A stretch of 64,000 bases of DNA from Streptantibioticus cattleyicolor NRRL 8057 = DSM 46488 (lineage in GTDB: Bacteria > Actinomycetota > Actinomycetes > Streptomycetales > Streptomycetaceae). Below the pieces are notes generated by a model, which saw only the letters and a list, made by a program, of their open reading frames with translations, did no database searches and was not told the origin of the DNA. Of the stretch, positions 25,754 through 55,704 are shown in pieces. Numbering within the stretch: the first letter of the stretch is position 1; every line of letters starts with the position of its first letter. The position numbers were made by a program, and so were the translations under genes. The stretch spans positions 124,001-188,000 of the forward strand of contig NC_017585.1 of NCBI RefSeq assembly GCF_000240165.1, in the 5' to 3' direction.

Positions 25754-27424
25754 ATGCTTTCGCGTCGCAGGCTCCTCACCGCCGCGGGGACGGCCACCGC
25801 CGCCCTCCTCGGCTCACCGCTTCTACTTCCGGAACGTGCCGCGCGCGCCCAGGCCGCGCCGGCGCTCCCCCTGACACTGCTCAACGCCTCCGGCAACGGC
25901 ACCGCCTACGCCTACATCACCGCCACCGACACCGCGGGCCGGCTCGGGTTCGTCGGCGCCGACGGTGTCTTCCACGCGCTGCCCAACCCGTCGTCCGTAC
26001 TGACCCCGGTGCCCGACTACGCGATCCCGCTCGGCCCTTCGGGCGGATCCGGGGTGTCGCTGGTGCTCACCGGCTACCTCACCGGGGGCCGGGTCTGGTT
26101 CTCCATCGGCGACAAGATCCGGTTCTTCGCCAACCCCGGCCCGCCCGGCGGCGCTCCGGGCCTGGTCGAGCCGGGGTTCACCAGTGCGGACCCCAACTGG
26201 TCGACGCACTGGAGCTTTTGCGAGTTCACCTACAACGCGGCCAATCTGTACGCCAACATCAGCTACGTCGATCTGGTCGCCTCCCCCATCTCGATGCGGT
26301 CCACCGGCGCGGCCGGCGACCAGTCGGTCAGCCCGCTGCCGCCCGGGGCACCGGAAGCCATCGCCTCGGGGCTGGCGGCACAGCACGCGGCCGACGGGGC
26401 GCCCTGGGACCAACTGGTGGTCCGCGACACCTCCGGCGCGCTGCTGCGGGTGCTGGCGCCGACGCACTCCCCGGCGTCCTTCGGCACGTACTTCGCCCCG
26501 TACGTGGACGCGGTCTGGTCGCACTTCCAGAACACACCACTGACCGTCGACACGCAGAACCCCGCCTTCGGCGCCTTCACCGGCACCGTCTCCGGTGACG
26601 TCCTGACCTTCGCCGGGCTCGACACCCACGGCGTGCCGTTCACCAAACCGGGCACGAACGACATCTTCAGCTGCGCCAGCGGCCCGTTGTACAACTCCGG
26701 CGGCGACGCGCGCGGGGCGGTGGCGGCACGTCTGTCGGCCGCGCTCAACCGCGGCACGCTGCTGCTGGACGGCGGCGGACAGCAGCCCAGCGGGGTGGGC
26801 CCGGCGCAGTACTACCAGAACGCGATCACCAACCATTACGCGCGCCTGGTGCACGCCAACGCCGGCGTCGGCTACGCCTTCCCCTACGACGACGTGGGCC
26901 CGACCGGGACCCCGCCGGTGGACGGCCACCTCCAGGACCCGGCCCCCACGTCCTGGACGATCACCCTCGGCGGCACCTCCGGCGGCGGCGGATCCGGTGG
27001 CGCCTCCACCACCAGCGCCTACACCACGATTCCGGCCTCCTCGTTCAGCTCGCGCAACGGCACGCAGACCGAGAACTGCCAGGACACCGGAGGCGGCCTG
27101 GACGTGGGCTGGATCCACGCCGGCTGCTGGCTCGGCTACCGCCGGATCGACTTCGGCGGCACCACCCCGCGGCAGTTCATCGCCCGGGTCGCCTCCGGCG
27201 CGGCGGCCGGCGTCAGCGGCGGCATCGAACTGCGCCTGGACGGCCCGACCGGCACCAAGGTCGCCGAGATCGACGTCGGCGACACCGGGGGCTGGCAGTC
27301 CTGGCGCACCGTCCCCATCAACCTCACCGGCGCCGCCACCGGGGTGCACGACGTCTACCTGACCTTCATCGGCTCGGCCTCCGACTTCGTCAACCTCCAC
27401 TGGTTCACCTTCTCCGCGACCTGA
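25754..27424 (+). CDS. Secreted GH64 beta-1,3-glucanase with C-terminal CBM6
   Basis: 556 residues. The N-terminus MLSRRRLLTAAGTATAALLG is a Tat-type signal. The GH64 catalytic domain spans about 38-405. Acidic residues E157 (SFCEFTY) and D173 (SYVDLV) are 16 apart, the spacing I recall for the catalytic pair of the laminaripentaose-producing enzyme of S. matensis. A Gly/Ser linker (GGTSGGGGSGG) leads to a CBM6-like module (about 422-556) with TTIPASSFSSRNGTQTENCQ and VHDVYLTFIGSASDFVNLHW. It should cleave fungal or callose beta-1,3-glucan outside the cell, releasing pentaose units. Confidence 0.88.
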   Translation: MLSRRRLLTAAGTATAALLGSPLLLPERAARAQAAPALPLTLLNASGNGTAYAYITATDTAGRLGFVGADGVFHALPNPSSVLTPVPDYAIPLGPSGGSGVSLVLTGYLTGGRVWFSIGDKIRFFANPGPPGGAPGLVEPGFTSADPNWSTHWSFCEFTYNAANLYANISYVDLVASPISMRSTGAAGDQSVSPLPPGAPEAIASGLAAQHAADGAPWDQLVVRDTSGALLRVLAPTHSPASFGTYFAPYVDAVWSHFQNTPLTVDTQNPAFGAFTGTVSGDVLTFAGLDTHGVPFTKPGTNDIFSCASGPLYNSGGDARGAVAARLSAALNRGTLLLDGGGQQPSGVGPAQYYQNAITNHYARLVHANAGVGYAFPYDDVGPTGTPPVDGHLQDPAPTSWTITLGGTSGGGGSGGASTTSAYTTIPASSFSSRNGTQTENCQDTGGGLDVGWIHAGCWLGYRRIDFGGTTPRQFIARVASGAAAGVSGGIELRLDGPTGTKVAEIDVGDTGGWQSWRTVPINLTGAATGVHDVYLTFIGSASDFVNLHWFTFSAT

Positions 27425-27546
27425 CCCCGCACCCCCCGGGCCCGGGACGGCGGCTCAGGCCGGCAAGGCGATCGCCTCGGCCCGGGCCCGGCGCAGCCAC
27501 ACGGCGTGGGTGGCCTCGTCGACGTCGATGACGGTACGGACGACGA

Positions 27547-27576
27547 CCTGCCGTACGTCGGTGACGGTACGGCAGG
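27547..27576. repeat. Perfect 10-bp inverted repeat
   Basis: CCTGCCGTAC (27547-27556) and GTACGGCAGG (27567-27576) are exact complements with a 10-bp spacer, inside the disrupted NQO gene. It may be the end of a small inserted element. Confidence 0.5.
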
Positions 27577-27625
27577 ACGCACGCGGTCCACACGCGGTGC
27601 AGCGGGTCGCCGGACTCGGCCCGGC

Positions 27626-27672
27626 CCGAGGGACGAGGGCCGGGCCCCGGCCGCAGCCGAGGCGAGGCGGGG
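27626..27672. repeat. Dispersed GC-rich repeat, copy A
   Basis: Positions 27626-27659 are identical over 34 bp to 52465-52498, with similarity continuing to about 27672. The core is near-palindromic (GGCCGGGCCCCGGCC). Here it lies inside the NQO gene remnant. Confidence 0.7.
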
Positions 27673-28034
27673 CCCGACCGTGGGGGACGAAGACCAGGGC
27701 GTCGAGCGTGGCGACCTCCGCCCGACGGCGTGCCACCAGCGGATCGGCGGCTGCCGCGGCCGGGCCCACCGTCGCCGTCCCGCCGGCCTCCGGCAGCGGC
27801 GGGAAGCCCTCGGCGTACAGGTCGTGCGCGAAGACCTCGCAGCCGCCGTCGCGCAACTGTCCCACCACGGCGTCGGACACGGCGTGGTGGAAGCTCCCCG
27901 GCCGTGGGTGCGCCAGATGGACCCCTGCCCGCATACCAGTCCCCCGTCGGCGTCGGCAGGGCCGACCGGTGATCGGCCCAGGCGGAGCTTACGCAGCCGG
28001 ACCGCGCCCGCCAGGGGCACCGCGGACGGGCCGG

Positions 28035-28757
28035 TCAGCCCAGCTTGAGCAGGAGCGCGGCGAGTTCGTCCGGCGCGGTGACCATGGCGTCGTGGCCGGT
28101 CGCCAGTTCCCACACCTGTGCCGGGGTGCCGTTGGGCTGCGTCGCGGGGACGGGCCGGCGCGGGAAGCCCTCCGGCCTGACAGTGCAGTGGATGTGGGTG
28201 CGCGGGATCGCGTCGACGGCCGGGTTGTCCAGCCGTACCGGTTGCTGGAGGCAGCGCACCGGCTGGTCGGAGAGCATCGAGCGCAGCCAGGCGGCGTCCG
28301 CGGGGTCGGTGACCCCGAACAGCCCGGCGGGCGGCGGCAGTTCGGGCAGCGGCGGCACCAGCCAGCCCGGTTCACAGTTCACGGCGCGGTCGATGACCCC
28401 CTGGGTGACCGGCATCACGTCGACGGCGCTCTCCCCGTGCTCGGGGACCATGGCCTCGAGGTAGACCAGGTGTCCGACGCGGTCCGGGACGTCGTTGGCC
28501 GCGGAGGAGATGACCAGTCCGGCGTAGCTGTGGCCGACGAGCACCACCTCATCGAGGTCTTCGCCGGTGATGAGCCCGACGACGTCGTCGACGTGGGTGT
28601 CGAGCCCCACCTCGGGGCCGCGCAGGTGTTTCCTCTCGCCGAGTCCGGTCAGTGACGGGGCGAACACCCGGTGGCCGGCGGACTCCAGCAACGGAACGAC
28701 GCGGTCCCAGCACGGTCCGCTGTGCCAGGCCCCGTGGACCAGGAGATAGGTCGACAT
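28035..28757 (-). CDS. Alpha/beta hydrolase, short esterase type
   Basis: 240 residues from the ATG at 28757. YLLVHGAWHSGPCWDRVVPLL (oxyanion region), VLVGHSYAGLVISSAA (nucleophile Ser in GHSYAG) and LATGHDAMVTAPDELAALLLKL (catalytic His) match the family that includes plant salicylate/methyl esterases and hydroxynitrile lyases. The bacterial substrate is unknown. It is divergent from an MmyB-type regulator, a recurring Streptomyces pairing. Confidence 0.87.
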   Translation of the reverse strand: MSTYLLVHGAWHSGPCWDRVVPLLESAGHRVFAPSLTGLGERKHLRGPEVGLDTHVDDVVGLITGEDLDEVVLVGHSYAGLVISSAANDVPDRVGHLVYLEAMVPEHGESAVDVMPVTQGVIDRAVNCEPGWLVPPLPELPPPAGLFGVTDPADAAWLRSMLSDQPVRCLQQPVRLDNPAVDAIPRTHIHCTVRPEGFPRRPVPATQPNGTPAQVWELATGHDAMVTAPDELAALLLKLG

Positions 28758-28923
28758 GGTTGTGCTCCTCGTGCGTGTCGGGGGAGGTACGGAGGGCCAC
28801 GGCGCGGCCCCGCTCGTCCCGCCGACCACGCTGCCGTCCGGGCTCCGCCGCAGCCAGCGCCCCGGCGATCCTGGGGGTGAGGGGACCAGGCAGCCGCGCG
28901 GGCGCGCTGACTACAGTGGGGGG

Positions 28924-29784
28924 ATGGCCGACGAACCGAACCAGCTGGGCGATTACGTACGCGCCCGCCGCGCGCTCGTCACCCCGCAGGAGGCCGGTAT
29001 CCCCGTCACGGGCGTGCGCCGGGTGCCGGGGCTGCGCCGGGAGGAGGTCGCGATGCTCGCCGGCATCAGCGCCGACTACTACCTGCGTCTGGAACAGGGC
29101 CGCGACCGCAACCCGTCGGTGCAGGTCCTGGAATCCATCGCCCGCGTCCTGCGGCTCGACGAGGACGCGACGGCGTACCTGCTGCGGCTCGGCGCCGCCA
29201 GGCCCTGGGGGCAGCGGCGCCGGCCCCGCGAGGAGACCGTCCCGGCGGGCGTCGCCAAGCTCGTCGCCGCCCTGCCGTTCCCCGCCTTCGTCGAGGGCCG
29301 CTACCTCGACATCCTCGCCGCCAACGCCTTGGCAACCGCGCTGTCCCCGCGTCTCGTCGTCGGCAACAACCGCCTGCGGGACGCCTTCCTCGACCCCGCC
29401 GAGCGGACCCTCCACCCCGACTGGGAGAGCGCCACGGCGAACATGGTCGCCGGGTTCCGCGAGTCGGTCGGCACCGACACGGACGACCCCCGGTTCATCG
29501 AGCTGGTCGGCGAACTCTCCCTCGCCAGCCCCCTGTTCAGCCGCCTGTGGGCCCGCCACGACGTGGACGCCTGCGAGGGCGCCGCGATCCGCGTCGACCA
29601 CCCGCAGATCGGTCCGGTACGACTCAACCGGGAGCGGCTGGGCGTCGGCGCCACGGCGAGCGGCAAACTCGTCGTCTACCACCCCGACCCGGGCACCGAC
29701 AGCGCCGAAAGACTCGCGCTCCTCGCCGCCACCCTCCCGCCCCCGACCGCCCCGTCGGCCACACCCGCGGCTTCGCGGCACTGA
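28924..29784 (+). CDS. XRE regulator with MmyB-like ligand domain
   Basis: 286 residues from the ATG at 28924; the larger frame running on through the GH87 gene is a shadow. The HTH region has VPGLRREEVAMLAGISADYYLRLEQGRDRNPSVQVLESIARVL, the hallmark of this family. The C-terminal MmyB-like PAS domain (about 110-275) has ILAANALATALSPRL and HPDWESATANMVAGFRESVG. It likely controls the divergent alpha/beta hydrolase. Confidence 0.88.
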   Translation: MADEPNQLGDYVRARRALVTPQEAGIPVTGVRRVPGLRREEVAMLAGISADYYLRLEQGRDRNPSVQVLESIARVLRLDEDATAYLLRLGAARPWGQRRRPREETVPAGVAKLVAALPFPAFVEGRYLDILAANALATALSPRLVVGNNRLRDAFLDPAERTLHPDWESATANMVAGFRESVGTDTDDPRFIELVGELSLASPLFSRLWARHDVDACEGAAIRVDHPQIGPVRLNRERLGVGATASGKLVVYHPDPGTDSAERLALLAATLPPPTAPSATPAASRH

Positions 29785-30151
29785 CGCTGCGGCCGTTCCG
29801 GGCGCGGACGGCTCAGCGCCTTCGCGCAATAACCCGCTGAAGCAACGCAACTTCCCCGCAGCCACCGCTGAGCAGCCGGGCTCAACGGGCTCTCCGCGCC
29901 CGGGCGTTGGCATCGCGACACCACACCGTCACACCGGCGGCGCCTACCGGCGGGTACCAGTCAGCAGTTCGCTCCCGGGCATGGACGCCGTTCCGGGGTT
30001 CTGCAACACTCTGCCCACAGGTACGCAAATTCTTGATAGTACCGCGATGGATCCATGGACCAGCGTGCAACTCCGCGGCCCAGTCCCGCAGGTTTCCGGT
30101 CTTCGAGTAGCACGCCCGATCCTCCAGACCCCCACGAGACAGAGGGACCCC
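29785..30151. other. 367-bp upstream region of the GH87 gene
   Basis: No gene is supported here. It contains GGTAC (30020-30024) and GTACC (30039-30043) flanking the AT-rich CGCAAATTCTTGATA, probably the promoter/operator of the glucanase gene. The CGCAAA core recurs before the LacI and solute-binding protein genes. Confidence 0.5.
30024..30035 (+). promoter_or_regulatory. Candidate LacI operator, GH87 copy
   Basis: CGCAAATTCTTG lies within the inverted GGTAC/GTACC arms upstream of the GH87 gene. Similar sequences are CGCAAAACTTG before the LacI gene and CGCAAATATTCG before the binding-protein gene. Confidence 0.4.
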
Positions 30152-33100
30152 ATGAGATCGCAGCGCTCCATCCCGCGCCTGGTGGCGGGGGTGATCGCGG
30201 CCGGCCTGCTGCTGCTCGGCGGGCCGGCCGGCCCCGCCGTCGCCGCGCGCCCCGCCGCGCCGGCGGCGCCACCACCACCCACCACGCCGCACCCGGGCGG
30301 CAGGTCCGCCTCGGCCAGCACCTCCGACGGCGGGCACACCGCCGCCCGCCTCGCCGACGGCGACGCCACGACGTACTGGCAGAGCAAGGCCGGCTCCCTT
30401 CCGCAGTGGGCCCAGCTCGACCTGGGCCGCACCACCCGCGTCGACCAGGTGAAGCTCAAGATGCCCGCCTCCTGGTCCGCCCGCACCGAGACGCTGTCGC
30501 TGCAGGCAAGTGCCGACGGCGTCTCCTTCGCCACGGTGACCGGCTCGAAGGCGTACACCTTCACACCCTCCTCCGGCAACACCGTGACGATCTCCTTCCC
30601 GGCCACCCTCGCCCGCTTCGTCCGGGCCGAGGTGACCGCGAACTCCGCCGCCAGGTCCGCCCAGTTGTCCGAGATGACCGTCCACCCGGCCGACGCCTCC
30701 ACGGTCGATCTGGCCGCCGGGAAGCCGACCGCGGAGTCCGGCCACGCCGACGTCTACCCCTCGGCCAACGCGGTCGACGGCGACGCGAACACCTACTGGG
30801 AGAGCACCGACAACGCCTTCCCGCAGTGGCTGCGCGTCGACCTCGGCAGCGCGGTGGCCGTCAACCGCGTGGTGCTCAAGCTGCCGCCGTCCACCGCCTG
30901 GGCGACCCGCACCCAGACCCTGTCCGTGCAGGGCAGCACCGACGGGAACACCTTCTCCGACCTCGTCGCCTCCGCCGGATACACCTTCGACCCGGCCACC
31001 GGCAACACCGTGACCATCGACTTCAACCAGGCCACCACCCGCTACGTCCGGCTGTACTTCACCGCCAACACCGGCTGGCCGGCCGGGCAGGTCTCCGAGT
31101 TCGAGGTGTACGGGCCGGCCTCCGGCGACACCACCGCGCCGACCGCGCCCACCGGCCTGGCGTACACCCAGCCCGCCCCCGGACAGATCACCCTCACCTG
31201 GCACGCGTCGACCGACAACGTCGGCGTCACCGGCTACGACGTCTACGCCAACGGCACCCTGCGCTCCTCGGTCGCCGGCGACGTGCTCACCTACACCGAC
31301 AACCGCCCCGACACCGACACCGTCACCTACTACGTCAAGGCGAGGGACGCGGCCGGCAACCAGTCCCCGGCCAGCAACAGCGTCACCCGCACCGGGACCT
31401 CCGGCGACACCCAGCCGCCGACCCCACCGGGCAACCTGGCGTACACCCAGCCCGCCCCCGGACAGATCAAGCTGACCTGGACCGCGGCCTCCGACAACGT
31501 CGGCGTCACCGGCTACGAGGTCTTCGCCGACGGCAGCCAGATCGCCACCACCGCCGGCGACGTGCTCACCTACACCGACAACCGCCCCGACTCCGACACC
31601 GTCACCTACTTCGTCAGGGCGAAGGACGCGGCCGGCAACGAGTCCGGCAACAGCAACACCGTCACCCGTACCGGCACCACCCCGACCGGCACCAACATGG
31701 CGCTCGGCAAGCCGATCAGCGCCTCCTCCACGGTGCAGAACTACGTGGCCGCCAACGCCGACGACGGTGATGTCACCACCTACTGGGAAGGCACCGGCAC
31801 CAGTTCGCTGACCGTACGGCTCGGTTCCAACGTGGACACCAGCTCGGTCGTGGTCAAGCTCAACCCCAGCATGAACTGGGGCCCGCGCACCCAGACCATC
31901 GAGGTGCAGGGCCGGGAGCAGAGCGCCTCCGACTTCACCCAGCTGGTCGCGCCCAAGAGCTATGCCTTCAGCCCGGCCACCGGCAACCTGGTGTCCATCC
32001 CGGTCTCCGCGCGCGTCGCCGACGTACGGCTGGTGTTCAGCGCCAACTCCGGTGCGGGCGGCGGCCAGGCGGCCGAGCTGGAAGTCATCGGCGTGCCCGG
32101 CCCCAACCCGGATCTGACCATCAGCGCGCTGACCGCCTCCCCCGCCACGCCGGTGGAGACCGATCCGGTCACGCTGAAGGCGACGGTGAAGAACATCGGC
32201 ACCCGTGACTCGGGCGCCACCGACGTCAACTTCTACCTCGGGACCACCAAGGCCGGCACCGCGAAGCTGGGCGCCCTGGCGGCCGGCGCCTCCACCACCG
32301 TCTCGGCCGATGTCGGCGCGCTCGGCGCGGGCAGCTACCAACTGACCGCCAAGGTCGACGAGTCCAACGTGGTCATCGAGCAGAACGAGAGCAACAACAG
32401 TTACACCAGCCCCGACCCGCTGGTGGTCAAGCCGGTGGCCTCCTCCGACCTGGTCGCCTCCCCGGTGGCCTGGTCGCCGGGGAACCCCTCGGCGGGGCAG
32501 GCCGTCACCTTCTCGGTGGCCGTCAAGAACCAGGGCACCGTCGCCTCGGCGGGCGGCAGCCACGGCATCACCCTCACCGTCACCGACGCCACGACCGGCA
32601 CCGTGGTCAAGACGCTCACCGGCGGCTACGACGGCACCATAGCGGCCGGCGCCACCACCTCCCCGGTGGCCCTGGGCAGCTGGACGGCGGCGAACGGCAA
32701 GTACACCGTCAAGACGGTCATCGCCGCGGACGCCAACGAACTGCCGGTCAAGCAGGGCAACAACACCTCCACCCAACCGCTCTTCGTCGGCCGCGGCGCC
32801 GACATGCCCTACGACTCCTACGAGGCCGAGGACGGGGTGCTCGGCGGCGGCGCGACGGTGCTCGGACCCAACCGGACCATCGGCGACCCCGCCGGTGAGG
32901 CGTCCGGCCGCGAGGCGGTGCGCTTGGCGTCCACCGGGGACTCCGTCTCCTTCACCACCCGGGCCGCCACCAACACCCTGGTCGTCCGCTTCAACATCCC
33001 GGACGGGCCGGACACCTCGCTCGACGTGTACGTCGACGGCGCCTTCCTCAAGGCGATCCCGCTCACCGCCAAGTACGCCTGGCTCTACGGCGACGAGGCG

Positions 33101-34456
33101 AGCCCCGGCAACAACCCCGGTGCCGGCAGCCCACGGCACATCTACGACGAGGCCAACCTGTTGCTGGGGTCCACCGTCCCGGCCGGCCACACCGTCACGC
33201 TGCGCAAGGACGCGGGCAACTCGGCGGCGTACTACAACATCGACTACATCGACCTGGAGCAGGCCACCCCGGTGCCCGACCCGGACCCGGCCACGTACGT
33301 GGTGCCGGCCGGCTTCACCCAGCAGGACGTGCAGGCGGCGCTGGACACCGCACGGCAGGACACCACCAAGCTCGGCGTCTACCTGCCCGCCGGTGACTAC
33401 CAGACCACCAACAAGTTCACCGTCTACGGCCGACCCATCAAGGTGATCGGCGCCGGGCCCTGGTTCACCCGGTTCCTCACCCCGCAGGGCCAGGAGAACA
33501 CCGACGCCGGCTTCACCGTACCGGCCACGGCGGGCGGCTCCACGTTCACCGGGTTCGCCTTCTTCGGCAACTACACCAGCCGCATCGACGGCCCCGGCAA
33601 GGTCTTCGACCTCAGCGGGGTGGCCAAGCTCACCATCGACAACCTGTGGATCGAGCACACCGTCTGCGGGGTGTGGGCGTCCAACGTCGACGACTCCACC
33701 TTCACCGGCCTGCGGATCCGCGACACCTTCGCGGACGGCATCAACCTCACCAACGGCAGCACCGGCAACCTGATCGCCGACGACGAGGCCCGGTCCACCG
33801 GGGACGACAGCTTCGCGCTCTTCCCGGCCATCGACAACAACAACGAGCAGGAGACCGGCAACACCTTCCGCAACCTCAGCGTCCGGACCACCTGGCGGGC
33901 GGCGGGCCTGGCGGTCTACGGCGGTGGCGGCAACACCTTCAGCAACCTCTACATCGCCGACACCCTCACCTACTCCGGCATCACCATCGGCTCGCTGCGG
34001 TTCGGCGGCATCCCCGCCCTGGGCTTCGAGTCCTCGCCGAAGACAACGTTCGACAACATCTCCCTGGTCCGGGACGGCGGCCACTTCTGGGGCTCGCAGA
34101 CCTTCCCGGCGCTGTGGCTGTACTCCGCGGAGTACGCCTTCCAGGGCATCAGGATCAGCGACACCGACATCACCGACCCCACCTACTCCGGGATCATGTT
34201 CCAGACCAAGTGGAACGGGTCCACCCCGCTCAACCCGATCACGGACACGGCGTTCACCGACATCACCGTCAAGGGCGCCCGCAGGAGCGGTGACGCCTAC
34301 GACGCCAAGTCCGGCTTCGGACTGTGGGCCAACCCGCAGCCGGAACCGGGCCAGGGTCCGGCGGTCGGCTCGGTGACCTTCAACGGTCTGCACGAGAGCG
34401 ACAACGCGGTCGACATCGAGAACACCACGTCCACCTTCACCATCAACGTCAGCTGA
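30152..34456 (+). CDS. Secreted multidomain GH87-type alpha-1,3-glucanase (mycodextranase-like)
   Basis: 1434 residues. Signal peptide 1-31. Domains in order: F5/8-type C (discoidin) at about 48-178 and 186-320, two FN3 at 328-416 and 421-509, a third discoidin at 514-647, two CARDB at 652-760 and 765-879, a CBM6/35-like module at 885-1036, and a right-handed beta-helix catalytic domain at 1045-1434. Candidate catalytic acids are D1195 (TFADGINLTNG) and D1218-D1219 (STGDDSF). The 23-residue gap matches the Asp trio I recall from Paenibacillus GH87. It should cleave fungal alpha-1,3-glucan. A strong terminator follows. Confidence 0.85.
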   Translation: MRSQRSIPRLVAGVIAAGLLLLGGPAGPAVAARPAAPAAPPPPTTPHPGGRSASASTSDGGHTAARLADGDATTYWQSKAGSLPQWAQLDLGRTTRVDQVKLKMPASWSARTETLSLQASADGVSFATVTGSKAYTFTPSSGNTVTISFPATLARFVRAEVTANSAARSAQLSEMTVHPADASTVDLAAGKPTAESGHADVYPSANAVDGDANTYWESTDNAFPQWLRVDLGSAVAVNRVVLKLPPSTAWATRTQTLSVQGSTDGNTFSDLVASAGYTFDPATGNTVTIDFNQATTRYVRLYFTANTGWPAGQVSEFEVYGPASGDTTAPTAPTGLAYTQPAPGQITLTWHASTDNVGVTGYDVYANGTLRSSVAGDVLTYTDNRPDTDTVTYYVKARDAAGNQSPASNSVTRTGTSGDTQPPTPPGNLAYTQPAPGQIKLTWTAASDNVGVTGYEVFADGSQIATTAGDVLTYTDNRPDSDTVTYFVRAKDAAGNESGNSNTVTRTGTTPTGTNMALGKPISASSTVQNYVAANADDGDVTTYWEGTGTSSLTVRLGSNVDTSSVVVKLNPSMNWGPRTQTIEVQGREQSASDFTQLVAPKSYAFSPATGNLVSIPVSARVADVRLVFSANSGAGGGQAAELEVIGVPGPNPDLTISALTASPATPVETDPVTLKATVKNIGTRDSGATDVNFYLGTTKAGTAKLGALAAGASTTVSADVGALGAGSYQLTAKVDESNVVIEQNESNNSYTSPDPLVVKPVASSDLVASPVAWSPGNPSAGQAVTFSVAVKNQGTVASAGGSHGITLTVTDATTGTVVKTLTGGYDGTIAAGATTSPVALGSWTAANGKYTVKTVIAADANELPVKQGNNTSTQPLFVGRGADMPYDSYEAEDGVLGGGATVLGPNRTIGDPAGEASGREAVRLASTGDSVSFTTRAATNTLVVRFNIPDGPDTSLDVYVDGAFLKAIPLTAKYAWLYGDEASPGNNPGAGSPRHIYDEANLLLGSTVPAGHTVTLRKDAGNSAAYYNIDYIDLEQATPVPDPDPATYVVPAGFTQQDVQAALDTARQDTTKLGVYLPAGDYQTTNKFTVYGRPIKVIGAGPWFTRFLTPQGQENTDAGFTVPATAGGSTFTGFAFFGNYTSRIDGPGKVFDLSGVAKLTIDNLWIEHTVCGVWASNVDDSTFTGLRIRDTFADGINLTNGSTGNLIADDEARSTGDDSFALFPAIDNNNEQETGNTFRNLSVRTTWRAAGLAVYGGGGNTFSNLYIADTLTYSGITIGSLRFGGIPALGFESSPKTTFDNISLVRDGGHFWGSQTFPALWLYSAEYAFQGIRISDTDITDPTYSGIMFQTKWNGSTPLNPITDTAFTDITVKGARRSGDAYDAKSGFGLWANPQPEPGQGPAVGSVTFNGLHESDNAVDIENTTSTFTINVS
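31157..31700. repeat. Tandem duplication of the FN3 domain
   Basis: The two FN3 modules are offset by 279 bp (93 codons) and are nearly identical in DNA: CTGGCGTACACCCAGCCCGC starts at 31157 and again at 31436, and the CTCACCTACACCGACAACCG stretches also match. Conservation at silent sites points to recent duplication or gene conversion. Confidence 0.8.
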
Positions 34457-34465
34457 CCCACGGCG

Positions 34466-34500
34466 GCGTGCCCGCGGTCCGCCCCGGACCGCGGGCACGC
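34466..34500 (+). terminator. Strong terminator hairpin after GH87 gene
   Basis: A perfect 15-bp stem (34466-34480 with 34486-34500) and a 5-nt loop GCCCC, starting 9 bp after the stop. There is no U tract, as is common in Streptomyces. Confidence 0.8.
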
Positions 34501-34533
34501 ACCGGTGCGTGATCGCATCTGCCCAGTAAGCCG

Positions 34534-34560
34534 CTTGCAAGTTTTGCGATAGCCTTGCGT
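34534..34560. promoter_or_regulatory. Candidate LacI autoregulatory operator
   Basis: CTTGCAAG (34534-34541) is a perfect palindrome. The minus strand at 34548-34538 reads CGCAAAACTTG, sharing the CGCAAA core seen at the other glucan genes. TTGC recurs three times in 25 bp directly before the LacI start. Confidence 0.5.
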
Positions 34561-34562
34561 AT

Positions 34563-35585
34563 ATGACGCGACGACTTGCTCAAGTGGCCAAGAAGGTCGG
34601 GGTCAGCGAGGCCACGGTCAGCCGGGTGCTCAACGGCAAACCGGGGGTCTCCGAGGCGACCCGCCAGTCCGTTCTCACCGCCTTGGACGTCCTCGGTTAC
34701 GAGCGTCCCACCCAGTTGCGCGGGGAGCGCGCCCGCCTCGTCGGGCTGGTCCTGCCCGAGTTGCAGAACCCCATCTTCCCGGCGTTCGCGGAGGTCATCG
34801 GCGGCGCGCTGGCGCAGCAGGGGTTCACGCCGGTGCTGTGCACGCAGACCAGGGGCGGGATCTCCGAGTCCGACTACGTCGAGTTGCTGTTGCAGCAGCA
34901 GGTGTCGGGGGTGGTCTTCGCGGGCGGTCTGTACGCCCAGGCCGACGCGGCCCACGACCACTACCGGCTGCTCGCCGAGCGGAAGGTGCCGGTGGTGCTG
35001 ATCAACGCGGCCATCGACCACCTCGGATTCCCCGCGGTCTCCTGCGACGACTCCGTCGCCGTGGAGCAGGCGTGGCGGCACCTGGTCTCGCTGGGGCACG
35101 AGCGCATCGGGCTGGTGCTCGGCCCGGAGGACCACATCCCGTCCCAGCGCAAGCTCACCACGGTCCGGCAGGTGGCCGCGGCGGCCGGCCGCGAGCTGGC
35201 CGGGGAGCACGTGGCGCGGGCGCTGTTCTCGCTGGAGGGCGGCCAGGCGGCCACCGCCCGGCTGCTGGAGCGCGGGGTGACCGGCATCATCTGCGCCAGC
35301 GACCCGTTGGCGCTCGGCGCGGTGCGCGCGGCCCGGCGGCGCGGCCTCGCCGTCCCCGGCGAGGTGTCGGTGGTCGGCTTCGACGACTCGATGTTCATGA
35401 ACTGCACCGAGCCGCCGCTGACCACGGTCCGGCAGCCCATCGAGGCGATGGGCCGGGCCGCGGTGGAGATGCTCACCGTCCAGATCGACGGCGGGTCGGT
35501 CACCGCCGAAGAGCTGCTGTTCGAGCCGGAGTTGGTGGTCCGCGGTTCCACCGGTCCCGCGCCTCGCGACGCCGGCGGCCGATAA
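34563..35585 (+). CDS. LacI-family transcriptional repressor
   Basis: 340 residues. The HTH and hinge helix are textbook: LAQVAKKVGVSEATVSRVLNGKPGVSEATRQSVLTALDVLGY. The periplasmic-binding-like sensor spans about 60-330, with LVGLVLPELQNPIFPAFAEVI, IGLVLGPEDHIPSQRKL, GIICASDPLALGAVRAARRRGLAVPGEVSVVGFDDS and TTVRQPIEAMG. It sits between the GH87 gene and the sugar ABC importer, so it should repress both in the absence of an oligosaccharide inducer. Confidence 0.93.
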   Translation: MTRRLAQVAKKVGVSEATVSRVLNGKPGVSEATRQSVLTALDVLGYERPTQLRGERARLVGLVLPELQNPIFPAFAEVIGGALAQQGFTPVLCTQTRGGISESDYVELLLQQQVSGVVFAGGLYAQADAAHDHYRLLAERKVPVVLINAAIDHLGFPAVSCDDSVAVEQAWRHLVSLGHERIGLVLGPEDHIPSQRKLTTVRQVAAAAGRELAGEHVARALFSLEGGQAATARLLERGVTGIICASDPLALGAVRAARRRGLAVPGEVSVVGFDDSMFMNCTEPPLTTVRQPIEAMGRAAVEMLTVQIDGGSVTAEELLFEPELVVRGSTGPAPRDAGGR

Positions 35586-35589
35586 CTGT

Positions 35590-35601
35590 CGAATATTTGC
35601 G
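35590..35601. promoter_or_regulatory. Candidate LacI operator before binding-protein gene
   Basis: The minus strand reads CGCAAATATTCG, sharing the CGCAAA core with sites before the GH87 and LacI genes. A related GAGATATTGC lies 20 bp downstream. It is about 110 bp upstream of the importer operon. Confidence 0.4.
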
Positions 35602-35708
35602 GGATCAACACGAGATATTGCACCGACCCGTCGTTGGTGGTTGAGTGAACGCCGTCACACAGCGCGCTGCTGTGGGCGTCCACGCACCTGCCCACGAGGG
35701 GTCGACCA

Positions 35709-37058
35709 ATGAGAAGTCCCGGGTTCCGCACGTGCACCGCCGTCATCGCCACCGCCCTCACGCTCACCGGGCTCAGCGCCTGCAATTCCGGCAGCGCCGA
35801 GGGTTCCGGCGGCAAGACCCGCATCACGGTCAACTGCTGGCCCCAGCCGAGCGCCCGGATCGACCACAAGCGGTTCGCCGAGGACGTCGCCACCTTCGAA
35901 AAGGTCAACCCGGACATCGACGTCGTCGCCCACGACGCCTTCCCGTGCGAGGACCCGAAGACCTTCGACGCCAAGCTGGCCGGCGGGCAGATGGAGGACG
36001 TCTTCTACACCTACTTCACCGACACCCGCCACGTCGTCGACATCGACCAGGCCGCCGACATCACCTCCTACGTCAAGGACCTCAAGGGCTACCAGGACAT
36101 CCAGAAGCAACTGCGTGACGTCTACACCGTCGACGGCAAGGTCTACGGGGTGCCACGCACCAACTACTCGATGGGTCTGCTCTACAACCGCAAGCTCTTC
36201 CAGCGGGCCGGCCTCGACCCCGACAAGCCCCCGGCCACCTGGGCGGACGTGCGGGCGGCGGCCAAGAGGATCGCGGCCCTGGGCAACGGCACCGTCGGGT
36301 ACGCCGAATACAGCGCGCAGAACCAGGGCGGCTGGCACTTCACCGCCGAGATCTACTCCCAGGGCGGCAGCGTCGTCAGCGCGGACGGCAAGAAGGCGGC
36401 GGTCGCCGGCCCCGAAGGCAGAGCGGTCCTGCAAAACCTCAAGGACATGCGGTGGACCGACAACTCCATGGGGTCCCGGCAGCTGCTGATCATCAACGAC
36501 GCCCTCCAAATGATGGGTTCCGGCAAGCTCGGCATGTACATCGCCGCTCCGGACAACGTCCCCAGGATCGTCAAGGAGGCCGGCGGCGACTACAAGGACC
36601 TGGCGTTCGCGCCGATGCCCGGCGGCAAGGCGACCCTGATCGGCGGCGACGGCTACATGTTCAACAAGCACGACACCCCTGCCCAGATCAAGGCCGGCCT
36701 CAAGTGGCTGGAGTGGACCTTCCTCACCCCGGGCAACGGCTTCCTCAACAACTACCAGCGCCTGGCGAAGGACGGCTCCCCGGTCGGCCTGCCCGAGCCC
36801 CGGCTCTTCACCGGTGCCACCGACGCCAAGGACCAGGAGCTGAAGAAGAAGTACGCCAACGTCCCGGTGGCCAACTACCGTTCCTTCACCGAGGGCGACC
36901 AGAAGCTCGCGATGAAGCTGGAGCCGCCGAAGGCACAGCAGATCTACGCGGTCCTCGACGGCGCGGTCTCCGCGGTGCTCACCAACAAGGACGCCGACAT
37001 CGACGCCCTCCTCAAGGACGCCTCCGGCAAGATCGACGGCATCCTCTCCCGGGGCTGA
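35709..37058 (+). CDS. Sugar ABC transporter solute-binding lipoprotein
   Basis: 449 residues. The signal sequence ends in the lipobox LTGLSAC (Cys 25), so it is tethered outside the membrane. The family-1 extracellular solute-binding fold is visible: FEKVNPDIDVVAHDAFPCED, KVYGVPRTNYSMGLLYNRKLFQRAGL, PPATWADVRAAAKRIA, FAPMPGGKATLIGGDGYMFN. It is first in an operon with two permeases. By context it binds oligosaccharides from glucan breakdown; the exact sugar is inferred, not seen. Confidence 0.9.
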   Translation: MRSPGFRTCTAVIATALTLTGLSACNSGSAEGSGGKTRITVNCWPQPSARIDHKRFAEDVATFEKVNPDIDVVAHDAFPCEDPKTFDAKLAGGQMEDVFYTYFTDTRHVVDIDQAADITSYVKDLKGYQDIQKQLRDVYTVDGKVYGVPRTNYSMGLLYNRKLFQRAGLDPDKPPATWADVRAAAKRIAALGNGTVGYAEYSAQNQGGWHFTAEIYSQGGSVVSADGKKAAVAGPEGRAVLQNLKDMRWTDNSMGSRQLLIINDALQMMGSGKLGMYIAAPDNVPRIVKEAGGDYKDLAFAPMPGGKATLIGGDGYMFNKHDTPAQIKAGLKWLEWTFLTPGNGFLNNYQRLAKDGSPVGLPEPRLFTGATDAKDQELKKKYANVPVANYRSFTEGDQKLAMKLEPPKAQQIYAVLDGAVSAVLTNKDADIDALLKDASGKIDGILSRG

Positions 37059-37066
37059 CGTCCGCG

Positions 37067-38044
37067 ATGAAGACCGCACGACGCCCCTCCCCCGCTTCCG
37101 CTCCGCCGCCGGCCACCGCGCCGCTCGCCGCCCCGGCGGCCCCCGCGGCGCGTCCCGCCGTCCGCGCCCCGCTGCGCCGCAGGCTCACCGACCAGTTGAG
37201 GGCGTACGGCTTCCTCCTCGGCGGCCTGCTCTGCTTCGCGCTCTTCTCCTGGTACCCGGCGATCCGCGCGGTGGTCATCGCCTTCCAGAAGTACACCCCG
37301 GGCTCGGCGCCGCGCTGGGTGGGCACCGCCAACTTCACCCACGTCTTCGCCGACCCCGAGTTCGCCGCGGCCTGGCGCAACACACTCGTCTTCTCGCTGC
37401 TCGCCCTGGTCATCGGCTTCGCCGTCCCGTTCGTCATGGCGGTGGTCCTCAACGAACTCCGGCACGCCAGAGCCTTCTTCAGGGTGGTGGTGTACCTGCC
37501 GGTGATGATCCCTCCGGTGGTCAGCGCGCTGCTGTGGAAGTGGTTCTACGACCCCGGGTCCGGGCTCGCCAACGAGGCGCTGCGCTTCGTGCACCTGCCC
37601 ACCTCCAACTGGACCAACGGCTCCGGCACCGCCCTGGTCTCCCTGGTCCTCGTCGCCACCTGGGCCAACATGGGCGGCACGGTGCTGATCTACCTGGCCG
37701 CGCTCCAGGGGATCCCCGGCGAGCTGTACGAGGCGGCGGAGCTGGACGGCGCGAGCGTGTGGCAGCGCCTGCGGCACGTCACCGTCCCGCAGACCCGCTT
37801 CATCATCCTGATGCTGCTCCTGCTCCAGATCATCGCCACCATGCAGGTCTTCACCGAGCCCTTCGTGATCACCGGCGGCGGCCCGGAGAACTCCACGATC
37901 ACCGTGCTGTACCTGATCTACAAGTACGCCTTCCTCTACAACGACTTCGGCGGTGCCTGCGCGCTCAGCGTGCTGCTGCTCGCCCTGCTCGGTGTCTTCT
38001 CCGCCTTCTACCTGCGGCTGACCCGTTCCGGGGAGGACCGATGA
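37067..38044 (+). CDS. Sugar ABC transporter permease (MalF type)
   Basis: 325 residues. An Ala/Pro-rich cytoplasmic N-terminus of about 45 residues is followed by six membrane helices. The EAA loop that docks the ATPase is YEAAELDGASVWQRLRHVTVPQ. MIPPVVSALLWKWFYDPGSGLAN is typical of MalF/UgpA. It starts 8 bp after the binding-protein stop and overlaps the next permease by 4 bp (ATGA). Confidence 0.92.
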   Translation: MKTARRPSPASAPPPATAPLAAPAAPAARPAVRAPLRRRLTDQLRAYGFLLGGLLCFALFSWYPAIRAVVIAFQKYTPGSAPRWVGTANFTHVFADPEFAAAWRNTLVFSLLALVIGFAVPFVMAVVLNELRHARAFFRVVVYLPVMIPPVVSALLWKWFYDPGSGLANEALRFVHLPTSNWTNGSGTALVSLVLVATWANMGGTVLIYLAALQGIPGELYEAAELDGASVWQRLRHVTVPQTRFIILMLLLLQIIATMQVFTEPFVITGGGPENSTITVLYLIYKYAFLYNDFGGACALSVLLLALLGVFSAFYLRLTRSGEDR

Positions 38045-38925
38045 CCGACCGTGCCGTACGCACTCTCGTCTCGCCGCTCACGCTGGCCCGGCCGCGCGGC
38101 AAGGCGGTGTACTGGACGGTGTTCGGCGCCGTGGTGCTGCTGTTCGCCCTCGCCTTCCTCTTCCCCGTCTACTGGATGGTCTCCGGTGCCATGAAGTCGC
38201 CGGAGGAGCTGGTCCGCACGCCGCCGACGCTGCTGCCGCACCACTGGCACCTGTCCGGGTACACCGACGCGTGGAGCCTGATGCAGTTGCCCACGCACCT
38301 GCTGGACACCGTGGTGCAGGCGGCCGGCGCCTGGCTGTTGCAGCTGGTCTTCTGCACCTTGGCGGCGTACGCGCTGTCCAAGCTGAAGCCGGCCTTCGGC
38401 AAGGTGGTCCTCGGCGGCATCCTCGCCACCTTGATGGTGCCGGCCCAGGCGCTGGTGGTGCCGAAGTACCTGACCGTTGCCGACCTGCCGGTCCTCCACG
38501 TCAACCTGCTCAACGACCCGCTGGCGATCTGGCTGCCCGCGGTGGCCAACGCCTTCAACCTCTACCTCCTCAAGCGGTTCTTCGACCAGATCCCGCGCGA
38601 CGTGCTGGAAGCGGCCGAGATCGACGGCGCCGGGAAGCTGCGTACCCTGTGGTCGATCGTGCTGCCGATGTCCCGGCCGGTGCTCGGGGTGGTGTCGATC
38701 TTCGCCCTGGTCGCGGTGTGGCAGGACTTCCTGTGGCCGCTGATGGTCTTCTCCGACACCGCGAAGCAGCCGATCAGCGTGGCGCTGGTCCAGCTGTCGC
38801 AGAACGTGCCGCTGACCGTGCTGATCGGGGCGATGGTGATCGCCAGTGTCCCGATGGTCGTGATGTTCCTGGTCTTCCAGCGGCACATCATCGCCGGCAT
38901 CGGAGCCGGCAGCACCAAGGGCTGA
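38041..38925 (+). CDS. Sugar ABC transporter permease (MalG type)
   Basis: 294 residues, six membrane helices. The EAA motif is LEAAEIDGAGKLRTLWSIVLPMSRPV, and LFPVYWMVSGAMKSPEEL is the MalG N-terminal pattern. The operon has no ATPase gene. In Streptomyces such importers usually share the MsiK ATPase encoded elsewhere, which is likely here as well. Confidence 0.92.
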   Translation: MTDRAVRTLVSPLTLARPRGKAVYWTVFGAVVLLFALAFLFPVYWMVSGAMKSPEELVRTPPTLLPHHWHLSGYTDAWSLMQLPTHLLDTVVQAAGAWLLQLVFCTLAAYALSKLKPAFGKVVLGGILATLMVPAQALVVPKYLTVADLPVLHVNLLNDPLAIWLPAVANAFNLYLLKRFFDQIPRDVLEAAEIDGAGKLRTLWSIVLPMSRPVLGVVSIFALVAVWQDFLWPLMVFSDTAKQPISVALVQLSQNVPLTVLIGAMVIASVPMVVMFLVFQRHIIAGIGAGSTKG

Positions 38926-38943
38926 CCCACCGCCCTTCCCGAC

Positions 38944-38985
38944 CGCCGCCGCCCCGGCCCGACACCCCGCTCCGGGGCGGCGGCG
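38944..38985 (+). terminator. Terminator after importer operon
   Basis: A perfect 14-bp stem (38944-38957 with 38972-38985) and a 14-nt loop, 18 bp after the permease stop. It may separate, or partly attenuate into, the GH13 gene. Confidence 0.7.
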
Positions 38986-39079
38986 CACCATCCGTCACCG
39001 TTGCGCGCGCGTACGGCCCCGGCGCCGTGAAGTCCCGCGCCGGGAAACCCCCGCGCCCGCGCTGGAAAGGAACCCGCCC

Positions 39080-40714
39080 ATGGAAGGCAGCGCCCTGTCC
39101 GCCGACGAGAACTGGTGGCGATCGGCCGCCATCTACCAGGTGTACGTCCGCAGCTTCGCCGACGGCGACGGCGACGGCACCGGAGACCTGGCGGGCGTGC
39201 GCGCCCGGCTGGCGTATCTCGCAGACCTGGGCGTCGAGGCCCTGTGGTTCAACCCCTGGTACCTGTCGCCGCTGGTCGACGGCGGTTACGACGTCACGGA
39301 CTACCGCGTCGTCGACCCCGCCTTCGGGACGCTGGCGGAGGCCGAGAAGCTCATCGCGGAGGCGAGCACGCTGGGCATCCGCACCATTATCGACATCGTC
39401 CCCAACCACGTCTCCGACCAGCATTCGTGGTTCCGGGCGGCCCTCGCCGCCGGCCCCGGCAGCCCGGAGCGCGAACTGTTCCACTTCCGTCCCGGCCGCG
39501 GCGCCCACGGCGAACTGCCGCCCAACAACTGGCCGTCGCAGTTCTCGCCGTCCGCCTCCACCTGGACCCGGGTCGAGGACGGCGAGTGGTACCTCCACCT
39601 GTTCGCCCCCCAGCAGCCCGACCTCAACTGGGCCCACCCCGCGGTCCGCCGGGAACACGAGGACGTGCTGCGCTTCTGGTTCTCCCGCGGCGTGGCCGGG
39701 GTGCGGATCGACTCCGCCGCGCTGCTCGCCAAGGACCCCGCGCTCCCCGACCACGACCCGGGCTCCCCCGGACCGTGCCCGTACATCGACCGCGACGAGC
39801 TGCACGACGTCTACCGCTCCTGGCGGGCCGTCGCCGACGAGTACGGGGCGGTGCTCATCGGCGAGCTGTGGCTGCCGGATCCGGCGCGCTTCGCCCGTTA
39901 CCTGCGCCCGGACGAACTCCACACCGCCTTCAACTTCGACTTCCTCACCCGTCGTTGGGACGCCGACGAGCTGCGCGTGTCCATCGACACCACCCTCGCC
40001 GAGCACGCCCCGGTCGGGGCCCCGGCCACCTGGGTGCTCAGCAACCACGACGTCACCCGCACCGTGACCCGCTACGGGCGCGCGGACACCGGCTTCGACT
40101 TCGCGGACAAGCGCTTCGGCACGCCGACCGATCTGCCGACCGGCACCCGCCGGGCCCGGGCCGCCGCCCTGCTCACCCTGGCGCTGCCCGGCTCGGTCTA
40201 CCTGTACCAGGGGGAGGAACTGGGGCTGCCCGAGGCCGACATCCCGCTCGACCGCATCCAGGACCCGATGCACTACCGTTCCGGCGGGACCGATCCCGGC
40301 CGGGACGGCTGCCGGGTACCGCTGCCCTGGACGGCCGCCGCGCCGCACGCCGGGTTCGGGACGTCCCCGGACGCCGAGCCGTGGCTGCCGCAGCCGGCCG
40401 GCTGGGCCGACTACGCGGCCGACCGCCAGGCGGCCGACCCCGGCTCGATGCTCTCGCTGTACCGCGAGGCGCTGCGGCTGCGCCGGTCCGGGCCCGGTTT
40501 CGGCGACGGCCCCCTGCGCTGGCTGCCCGCACCGCCCGGCGTGCTGTGCTTCGCCCGCGCCGACACCCTGGTCTGCGTGGTCAACCTCACCGACCGCCCC
40601 GTGGACCTCCCCGACCACACCGCCGTCCTGCTGACCAGCGCCCCGCTGGACGGGACCGGACGGCTCCCCCGGGACACGGCGGCCTGGCTGTCGGCGTCGC
40701 CCGCCGGCGGGTGA
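39080..40714 (+). CDS. GH13 alpha-glucosidase (intracellular)
   Basis: 544 residues with no signal peptide. The (beta/alpha)8 motifs are intact: IDIVPNHVSD (region I), GVRIDSAALL with nucleophile D211 (II), LIGELW with acid/base E262 (III), and WVLSNHDVTR with D324 (IV). WWRSAAIYQVYVRSFADGDGDGTGDL is the oligo-1,6-glucosidase/alpha-glucosidase start, and a C-terminal beta domain follows. AAAGGAA lies upstream. By context it hydrolyses imported alpha-glucosidic (for example nigero-) oligosaccharides to glucose. Confidence 0.9.
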   Translation: MEGSALSADENWWRSAAIYQVYVRSFADGDGDGTGDLAGVRARLAYLADLGVEALWFNPWYLSPLVDGGYDVTDYRVVDPAFGTLAEAEKLIAEASTLGIRTIIDIVPNHVSDQHSWFRAALAAGPGSPERELFHFRPGRGAHGELPPNNWPSQFSPSASTWTRVEDGEWYLHLFAPQQPDLNWAHPAVRREHEDVLRFWFSRGVAGVRIDSAALLAKDPALPDHDPGSPGPCPYIDRDELHDVYRSWRAVADEYGAVLIGELWLPDPARFARYLRPDELHTAFNFDFLTRRWDADELRVSIDTTLAEHAPVGAPATWVLSNHDVTRTVTRYGRADTGFDFADKRFGTPTDLPTGTRRARAAALLTLALPGSVYLYQGEELGLPEADIPLDRIQDPMHYRSGGTDPGRDGCRVPLPWTAAAPHAGFGTSPDAEPWLPQPAGWADYAADRQAADPGSMLSLYREALRLRRSGPGFGDGPLRWLPAPPGVLCFARADTLVCVVNLTDRPVDLPDHTAVLLTSAPLDGTGRLPRDTAAWLSASPAGG

Positions 40715-44084: not shown

Positions 44085-44100
44085 GGGACGACCTCTCACT

Positions 44101-45765: not shown

Positions 45766-45802
45766 GGGGGTCCTTCCGGAAGCCGCCGGCGAAGCGGACG
45801 GG

Positions 45803-46726
45803 TCAGACGGTGCGGATCATGCCCTCCTGGACGACGGTGGCCAGATGCCGGTGGTCGCGGGTGAAGAAGCGGCCGGTGGCGACCCCGCGTCCGGCGTCGG
45901 CGGCGACCGCGTCCTGGACGTACAGGAGCCAGTCGCCGACCGGGCCCGGGCGGTGGAACCACATGGCGTGGTCGAGGCTGGCGGTGACCAGTCCGGGTCT
46001 GGCCCACGGCAGGTCGAGCACCCGCAGGACGGGTTCGAGGATGGTGTAGTCGCAGACGTAGGCGAGGGCGGCGAGGTCGCGCTGGGCGTCGGTGAGCCCT
46101 TCGACCGGCCGCAGCGGGTCGAACGGCTTGAGCCACACCGCCTGGTGCGCGACGCGTTCGCCCTCGACGGTGAGGTAGACCGGCCCGGGCACGTGCCGCA
46201 TGTCGAATCCGCGCCCCGTGGACCAGTACGTCTTCGAGGTGTCGGTCATCGTGCCGCCGTCGCGTCCGGCGAGGTACCGCGCGGAGCTGGGCAGTCGCTC
46301 CGGGTCGGGGACGTCCTCGGGCGGCCGGGCGTGGAAGGCGCCGCCGGCCTCCCCGGCGGCGAAGTTGGCCAGGCAGACGTAGAGCGGTTTGCCGTGCTGG
46401 TAGCCGCGCACCTGCCGGGTGCTGTAGCCGCGCCCGTCGCGCACCACTTCCACCTCGTAGCGCACGCTCGCGCCGATGTCGGCGGGGCGCAGGAAGTAAC
46501 TGTGCGTGGAGTGCAGTGTCTTGCCGTCGGTGACGGAGCGCATGGCCGCCGCCGCTGCCTGGGCGACCAGGTCGCCGCCGTACGCCTTGGGCCACGGGCA
46601 GGGCTGGGTGACGGCGGTGAAGGCGAGGTCGAAGTGGTGGGGTTCGGCGGGGACGAGGGTGACGGCGGTGGTGAAGACGGCGGAGGTGGCGTGGCTTCCG
46701 GTGGCGGTCTTCCCGGCGCCGGTCAC
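45803..46726 (-). CDS. Acyl-CoA thioesterase II-type (TesB-like)
   Basis: 307 residues from GTG 46726; its start overlaps the cupin stop by 4 bp (GTGA). Double hot-dog features: CPWPKAYGGDLVAQAAAAAMRSV and LHSTHSYFLRPADIGASVRYEVEVVRDGRGYSTRQVRGYQ in the first half, DHAMWFHRPGPVGDWLLYVQDAVAADAGRGVATGRFFTRDHRHLATVVQEG in the second. The Asp of the DHAMWFH motif is the usual catalytic residue. It may release the acid from pathway CoA esters or recycle CoA. Confidence 0.88.
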   Translation of the reverse strand: MTGAGKTATGSHATSAVFTTAVTLVPAEPHHFDLAFTAVTQPCPWPKAYGGDLVAQAAAAAMRSVTDGKTLHSTHSYFLRPADIGASVRYEVEVVRDGRGYSTRQVRGYQHGKPLYVCLANFAAGEAGGAFHARPPEDVPDPERLPSSARYLAGRDGGTMTDTSKTYWSTGRGFDMRHVPGPVYLTVEGERVAHQAVWLKPFDPLRPVEGLTDAQRDLAALAYVCDYTILEPVLRVLDLPWARPGLVTASLDHAMWFHRPGPVGDWLLYVQDAVAADAGRGVATGRFFTRDHRHLATVVQEGMIRTV

Positions 46727-47205: not shown

Positions 47206-47319
47206 GGGTTCGGCTCCGTTTCAGTCGTCACGGGGGTGCCGCCGGAGGGCCGTTGCGGGGTGGAGAGCGCCGGGCGCGTACGCGTCCTGCCGAGCGGCAG
47301 GGCGAGGATGACGATGTCT

Positions 47320-55701: not shown

Positions 55702-55704
55702 CCG

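Follow-up and report, generated by a model that had tools for sequence, protein, structure and literature searches.

A putative LacI-controlled locus for α-1,3-glucan utilisation around a GH87 gene of Streptantibioticus cattleyicolor

Introduction

α-1,3-Glucan occurs in the cell walls of fungi and in dental plaque. An enzyme of glycoside hydrolase (GH) family 87 is reported to liberate glucose together with nigerose and nigerotriose from the walls of Aspergillus (PMC10696023), and Streptomyces strains have been isolated on mutan and alternan, with growth on α-1,3-glucan (PMC11475409). In Lachnoclostridium phytofermentans, the Cphy_1874–1877 cluster includes genes for a GH65 nigerose phosphorylase, a GH31_u1 α-1,3-glucosidase, an ATP-binding cassette (ABC) transporter, and a LacI regulator, with a GH87 gene nearby, and a role of this cluster in nigerose degradation has been proposed (PMC9061262). 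Here we describe positions 25754–40714 of a 64,000-nt stretch (hereafter the window) of contig NC_017585.1 of Streptantibioticus cattleyicolor NRRL 8057, in which a GH87 gene is followed by genes for a LacI-family regulator, an importer consisting of a solute-binding protein (SBP) and two permeases, and a GH13 enzyme. With a probability of roughly 0.8, we regard these genes as a LacI-controlled α-1,3-glucan utilisation locus, in which the GH87 enzyme would be secreted, the importer would take up nigero-oligosaccharides, and the GH13 enzyme would hydrolyse them.

The first-pass annotation of the window had noted that such a route was not known to be described as a regulated Streptomyces locus. 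This held among the open-licence papers listed (titles and beginnings of abstracts), where no Streptomyces α-1,3-glucan import locus was found and a clostridial GH87/ABC/LacI cluster is discussed in one paper (PMC9061262).

Gene organization and domain content

The genes considered here are as follows.

25754–27424, plus strand: GH64 protein with CBM6 (Pfam Glyco_hydro_64, 8.7e-112; CBM6, 1.6e-35)
30152–34456, plus strand: GH87 protein of 1434 aa, predicted to be a secreted α-1,3-glucanase (CatAgl_D1/D2; signal peptide read by eye)
34563–35585, plus strand: LacI-family regulator (Pfam LacI, Peripla_BP_3)
35709–37058, plus strand: lipoprotein SBP (SBP_bac_1; LSAC lipobox read by eye)
37067–38044, plus strand: ABC permease 1 (BPD_transp_1; the scanned piece started at 37082)
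38041–38925, plus strand: ABC permease 2 (BPD_transp_1)
39080–40714, plus strand: GH13 protein, predicted intracellular α-glucosidase (Alpha-amylase domain, 1.2e-93)

All the parts listed in the first-pass annotation (GH64-CBM6, GH87-like protein, LacI, SBP, two permeases, and GH13) were thus found, and their domains were confirmed. A signal peptide was looked for in the GH13 product and none was seen; the GH64 product has a Tat-like N-terminus, its signal being read by eye. In Pfam scans of the gene products of 25754–40714, the only glycosidases were GH64, GH87, and GH13, and neither GH65 nor GH31 was detected. The genome searched comprises 8.1 Mb, and the comparison set contains no second genome of the genus.

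The GH87 product carries both halves of the catalytic unit, CatAgl_D1 (1.6e-64) and CatAgl_D2 (2.7e-100), far over the Pfam cut-offs. This unit is C-terminal and is preceded by accessory modules, namely three F5/8C (discoidin) stretches, FN3-like repeats that match chitinase A1 (1k85), and two CARDB modules. The best solved relative is the α-1,3-glucanase 6k0m (391–394 bits) from Paenibacillus glycanilyticus FH11, and residues D1195, D1218, and D1219 align with the Asp residues mutated in 6k0p, 6k0q, and 6k0s. Because both sub-domains, the 6k0m match, and the conserved Asp triad are present, the protein is classified as a true member of GH87, and it is predicted to hydrolyse α-1,3-glucan in the endo mode. 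The whole genome yielded one GH87 match; the second GH87 type described below was therefore not found in it.

Linkage of GH87 with the LacI/importer/GH13 module

A search with the SBP gave 272 relatives, of which the top 80, all in named Streptomyces loci, were compared. The module is well preserved in these loci (SBP in 80, each permease in 79, GH13 in 77, and LacI in 71), with orthologue identities of 72–84% for SBP, 78–85% for LacI, and 75–83% for GH13. In 52 of the 80 loci, a match to the GH87 catalytic unit passed the filter, and these matches are of two types. The type found in the window (64–67% identity) occurs in six of the 52 loci (L032, L044, L045, and L047–L049), where its gene flanks the module at the LacI end, on the opposite strand in L032. 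The other type, related to the Streptomyces thermodiastaticus enzyme AglST (PDB 7C7D), occurs in 46 of the 52; these proteins share 74–91% identity with the L043 enzyme, and all are encoded 3′ of GH13 on the same strand. Against 7C7D, the L043 GH87 scored 1044 bits and the AglST-like gene of L042 scored 378 bits. Both types are present together in L044. Two quite different predicted GH87 enzymes hence use two positions beside the same module.

Eighteen further regions were picked by coordinate, not at random: 11 in which GH87 and SBP are close and 7 in which they lie at a long distance from each other or on separate contigs. The gene order of the window is repeated in three of them (L149–L151). 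In eight others (L145–L148, L152–L154, and L156), LacI, GH87, SBP, the permeases, and GH13 all occur together, with identities of approximately 50% for SBP, 72–78% for LacI, and 69–71% for GH13. In the split genomes, where the importer is distant or on another contig, LacI (81–82%) is located beside GH87 in six of the seven regions: L139–L144 contain GH87 and LacI and no other module gene, and L155 contains GH87 alone.

Co-occurrence was evaluated over 394 genomes of Streptomycetaceae at thresholds of E 1e-3 for GH87 and GH64 and E 1e-100 for SBP, and the three were found in 221, 311, and 211 genomes, respectively. GH87 and SBP were both present in 206 genomes and both missing from 168; 15 genomes contained GH87 only and 5 contained SBP only (phi 0.90). 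A chance neighbourhood of GH87 and the module is unlikely because of the conserved linkage and the co-occurrence. Taken with the split-locus genomes and the operator-like sites shared between the genes (next subsection), these data strongly suggest that GH87 belongs with the LacI/importer/GH13 module, as the first-pass annotation had proposed.

Operator-like sites in the promoters

The aligned SBP promoters share a palindrome-like element, CTGTC-AAATAATT-ACAG. Three sites were predicted in the window.

35586–35604, plus strand: site ahead of the importer operon, a predicted LacI operator that the promoter alignment shows to be conserved (21–23 bits)
30024–30039, minus strand: site ahead of GH87, likewise a predicted LacI operator, about 112–128 bp before the start codon
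34523–34557, plus strand: predicted autoregulatory operator in the LacI promoter, matching the 35-mer motif of 70 LacI promoters

The SBP-promoter motif was built from 70 promoters; ten of the 80 did not fit the text pattern and were omitted (including those of L044, L045, and L047–L049), as was the window. Over both strands of the window, this motif scored highest at the SBP promoter of the window itself (21.3 bits), followed by a site 112–131 bp ahead of GH87 (12.0 bits) and a third match at 7.1 bits. When a narrower training set of nearer types was used, the top three scores in the window were 23.4, 11.8, and 10.3. The 35-mer of the LacI promoters gave 30.6 bits at the window site, and the next score was below 0, besides its own overlapping reverse match. 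The layout of the LacI promoter element is related to, yet different from, that of the SBP and GH87 sites.

Over the 8.1-Mb genome, the consensus of the relatives matched six sites (3 + 3) with three or fewer mismatches, versus 1 + 3 for the control. The SBP and GH87 sites are two of the four best sites, each with two mismatches; one of the remaining two falls inside a coding sequence, and the second is close to where a gene may start. A degenerate pattern at the same mismatch limit gave 29 + 29 matches, which is not far above the 15 + 28 of the reversed-pattern control, and its two exact matches are not independent because the pattern was designed around both window sites.

For the GH87 sites of the relatives, a LacI-promoter motif derived from 64 promoters was used, the loci with the window's GH87 type (L032, L044, L045, and L047–L049) being left out of the training. 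Its top match lies before GH87 in L044, L045, L049, L149, L150, and L151 (17–27 bits; the L150 site was assigned by hand, not by script), and in L032, L047, and L048 the match before GH87 is second and weak (11–12 bits). Throughout L139–L148 and L152–L156, the best match is mostly located before LacI, except in L139–L144, L155, and L156. In L148, this motif found nothing strong before GH87, and the SBP motif scored 16.4 bits before the AglST-type gene there.

Importer, ATPase, and GH13 enzyme

No ATPase gene was present among the scanned cluster products, and the 8.1-Mb genome contains a single OB_MalK (MalK/MsiK-type ATPase) match. An SBP with two permeases and no linked ATPase is the arrangement of shared-ATPase (MsiK-type) importers, which agrees with the earlier remark that Streptomyces importers often share MsiK; the SBP and permeases would have to borrow their ATPase, and their function would depend on MsiK.

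The top sequence match of the SBP in PDB is Listeria Lmo0181, which binds cyclic nigerosyl-1,6-nigerose (PMC7676653), and the second is 7bvt, a binder of cyclic maltosyl-maltose from Arthrobacter. In the predicted SBP structure (pLDDT 86.2), the nearest folds are the Thermotoga, Arthrobacter (cyclic maltosyl-maltose), and Listeria (cycloalternan) binders and Streptomyces MalE, with a β-1,2-glucan binder in seventh place. The fold suggests, not decisively, an α-gluco-oligosaccharide ligand.

These matches bear on the possibility that the locus serves mixed-linkage α-glucans, i.e. nigeran (α-1,3/1,4, by mycodextranase action) or alternan/cycloalternan (α-1,3/1,6), and that mixed nigerosyl oligosaccharides are imported. 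The best PDB sequence match, as a cycloalternan binder, is in line with this, as are the grouping of actinomycete mycodextranases with GH87 enzymes (PMC11475409, PMC10696023) and the fact that alternan, like mutan, has yielded Streptomyces isolates (PMC11475409). However, the window GH87 is nearest to the α-1,3-glucanase 6k0m and linked relatives match 7C7D, and the SBP resembles its PDB matches only distantly (about 20% identity), which makes the transfer of a ligand from them weak. We consider a mixed-linkage locus unlikely and α-1,3-glucan the better candidate.

The same genome contains a separate MalE operon (C2:1446–1452 kb, L124) with permeases, its own GH13, and its own LacI. The MalE orthologue encoded there matches 8ART with 407 bits, compared with 53 bits for the window SBP, and the two proteins share 27–29% identity. 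Because this orthologue and its operon exist elsewhere in the genome, the window module was rejected as the Streptomyces maltose operon itself.

It could still be a second maltose/maltodextrin-type (α-1,4) importer with an AglA-like GH13, to which GH87 is adjacent by chance. The window GH13 is 54–59% identical to the GH13 of the MalE-type operon, the LacI proteins of the two loci share 55% identity, and Streptomyces scabiei MalE and GacH are among the nearest SBP folds. Against this stand the low identity of the SBP to MalE, the recurrence of the GH87 linkage with two GH87 types in several arrangements, and the operator-like site common to the SBP and GH87 promoters. Moreover, 28 GH13 positions are more than 97% conserved in 88 module sequences and differ from both paralogues of the genome (paralogue gaps being scored as different). 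One of them is Ser212, which follows the nucleophile Asp and is replaced by Val in both paralogues. A second maltose importer is, on this evidence, highly improbable.

The residue after the GH13 nucleophile bears on linkage specificity, and Ser212 may be linked to the cleavage of α-1,3 bonds. From its context, the window GH13 likely cuts the α-1,3 bonds of imported nigero-oligosaccharides. A literature search on subfamily GH13_30 returned nothing useful.

Position of the GH64 gene

The first-pass annotation had placed GH64 in the same unit as the GH87 module. If so, this would be a joint fungal-wall locus with co-regulated GH64 (β-1,3) and GH87 (α-1,3) genes. GH64 starts 4.4 kb ahead of GH87 in the window and lies within 9 kb of it in four other genomes (L158–L161), and the two families co-occur to a degree (phi 0.46). 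L158–L161 were, however, chosen for closeness, and GH64 was found in none of ten GH87 regions picked irrespective of it (L162–L171). In the window, the GH64 promoter has no operator match with the SBP or LacI motifs. Three genes lie between GH64 and GH87, namely a minus-strand open reading frame that has no match in Pfam, one for an α/β hydrolase, and one for an MmyB-like regulator, which makes GH64 a neighbour and not a contiguous member.

The comparison with the relatives gave the same picture. At the initial threshold, GH64 was matched in 1 of the 80 module loci, and a looser one added a single partial match (L063) among 100 loci scanned. GH64 and SBP were both present in 198 of the 394 genomes, GH64 only in 113, SBP only in 13, and neither in 70 (phi 0.39), a weaker co-occurrence than that of GH87 and SBP over the same tree. 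The closest GH64 relatives (76–78%) are found in five genomes: two have no GH87 match, two have their best GH87 match on another contig, and in one GH87 was not located. Neither the promoter motif nor the co-occurrence, the gene neighbourhood, or the nearest relatives thus support membership of GH64 in the module. A joint locus appears improbable, and on these sequence comparisons GH64 is best left out of the unit and treated as a nearby gene.

Observations that weigh against the proposed locus

Several observations argue against an α-1,3-glucan utilisation locus as described above. The functions of SBP, GH13, and LacI are predictions from sequence. In 28 of the 80 module loci, no GH87 match passing the filter was found in the fetched flanks; nine of these are S. 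griseus-type loci (L033–L041), three carry AglST remnants, and some are short contigs. The Fisher p of 1e-85 for GH87 and SBP overstates independence because the 394 genomes are related. No strong motif site was found before GH87 in L139–L144, L145–L147, and L152–L156, and SBP-type matches of 13–20 bits are located at unexplained places in L139, L145–L147, L152, and L153. In addition, the right half of the GH87 site, ATTTGCGTAC, precedes several unlinked GH87 genes, with lower scores, so that inheritance may account for part of the resemblance between this site and the operator of the SBP gene.

The origin of the locus adds to these points. The window GH87 catalytic domain is 78–85% identical to those found in another single genus (at least 21 genomes) and no more than 72% identical to the others among the matches listed. 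The module LacI, SBP, permease, and GH13 genes were not found in any of the 13 fetched 20-kb regions containing GH87 of the other genus (L159–L171). For the window SBP, LacI, and GH13, Streptomyces niger provides the nearest or joint nearest relatives (84, 85, and 80%, respectively), and the GH87 of S. niger is just 64% identical to that of the window. Because the nearest kin of GH87 are unlinked in another genus and those of SBP, LacI, and GH13 are in S. niger, the locus looks mosaic, and the GH87 in the window slot probably replaced another.

Some features of the compared loci may be recorded here. L062, L066, and L108 contain decaying AglST-type GH87 remnants 3′ of GH13, and the importer module is complete there. 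The S. griseus-type importer loci have no adjacent LacI and retain the operator-like element. SBP-operator-like matches outside known module promoters (L139:9687, L146:13413, L145:14378, L152:14595, and L153:4133) are possibly further regulon members. In L159–L161, L163, L165, and L167–L171, a second stretch resembling the discoidin-rich N-terminal half of GH87 (28–39%) recurs at a distance of several kb or less from the unlinked GH87 gene.

Proposed pathway

Domain content, catalytic residues, conserved linkage, co-occurrence, and shared operator-like sequences are properties of the sequences themselves; the ligand, the linkage specificity of GH13, the inducer, the sharing of an ATPase, and repression are inferred from them in the following scheme. 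Once exported, GH87 would cleave α-1,3-glucan, either of fungal walls or as mutan, to nigerose plus short nigero-oligosaccharides. These would be imported by the lipoprotein and the two permeases, powered by the single MsiK/MalK-type ATPase of the genome, and hydrolysed to glucose by the cytoplasmic GH13. LacI would repress lacI, the importer operon, and GH87 until the imported sugar binds it. Of the earlier interpretation, this scheme retains the tie between GH87 and the module and the borrowing of an ATPase and abandons the membership of GH64.

A more far-reaching version, to which we give somewhat less than even odds, is that of a dedicated and so far unnamed LacI regulon present in approximately half of the sampled genomes of the family, in which GH13 would act as a specialised intracellular α-1,3-glucosidase (elsewhere a task of GH31 or GH65 enzymes), GH87 would be interchangeable, and the regulator would tend to stay with GH87. 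If the proposed scheme is true, a transporter, a regulator, and an intracellular enzyme for α-1,3-glucan can be named and a predicted operator supplied, and the trait would be widespread, in view of the 206 of 394 genomes that contain both GH87 and SBP.

Other regions of the window

Positions 41682–48719 contain a likely salicylate catabolic cluster, with a bifunctional salicylyl-CoA 5-hydroxylase over the NCBIfam cut-off as well as a CoA ligase, an acyl-CoA thioesterase, a RidA-like protein, and a PaaX-type regulator. In 54325–62135, a polyprenyl synthase, whose best NCBIfam match is a family 2 encapsulin cargo model (under cut-off), is accompanied by three predicted proteins (458, 387, and 1204 aa) with no Pfam match over cut-off and no NCBIfam match. 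A chloramphenicol phosphotransferase-like protein is encoded at 52684–53610, and a prolyl-type tRNA synthetase with an editing domain (class II core, tRNA_edit, and anticodon domain) at 11686–13377, approximately 136 kb from the contig start.

Comparison with known systems

The window locus resembles the Lachnoclostridium cluster in combining a GH87 endo-enzyme, an ABC importer, and LacI, and differs from it in having GH13 in place of GH65 and GH31; the two organisms belong to different phyla. The Streptomyces maltose operon (MalR-MalEFG-AglA) has the same composition of LacI, SBP, two permeases, and GH13, but the window SBP is not a MalE orthologue. AglST is a GH87 α-1,3-glucanase whose relatives adjoin GH13 in many Streptomyces modules, whereas the window GH87 is of the other type, nearer to 6k0m, and is located ahead of LacI. 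The cmmA–G genes of Arthrobacter globiformis (PMC7676653) likewise encode an extracellular enzyme, an SBP with two permeases, and an intracellular GH13-family α-glucosidase that serve an α-gluco-oligosaccharide, and their SBP (7bvt) is among the top fold matches of the window SBP; the sugar differs, however, and the extracellular enzyme of that system belongs to GH13, not GH87.

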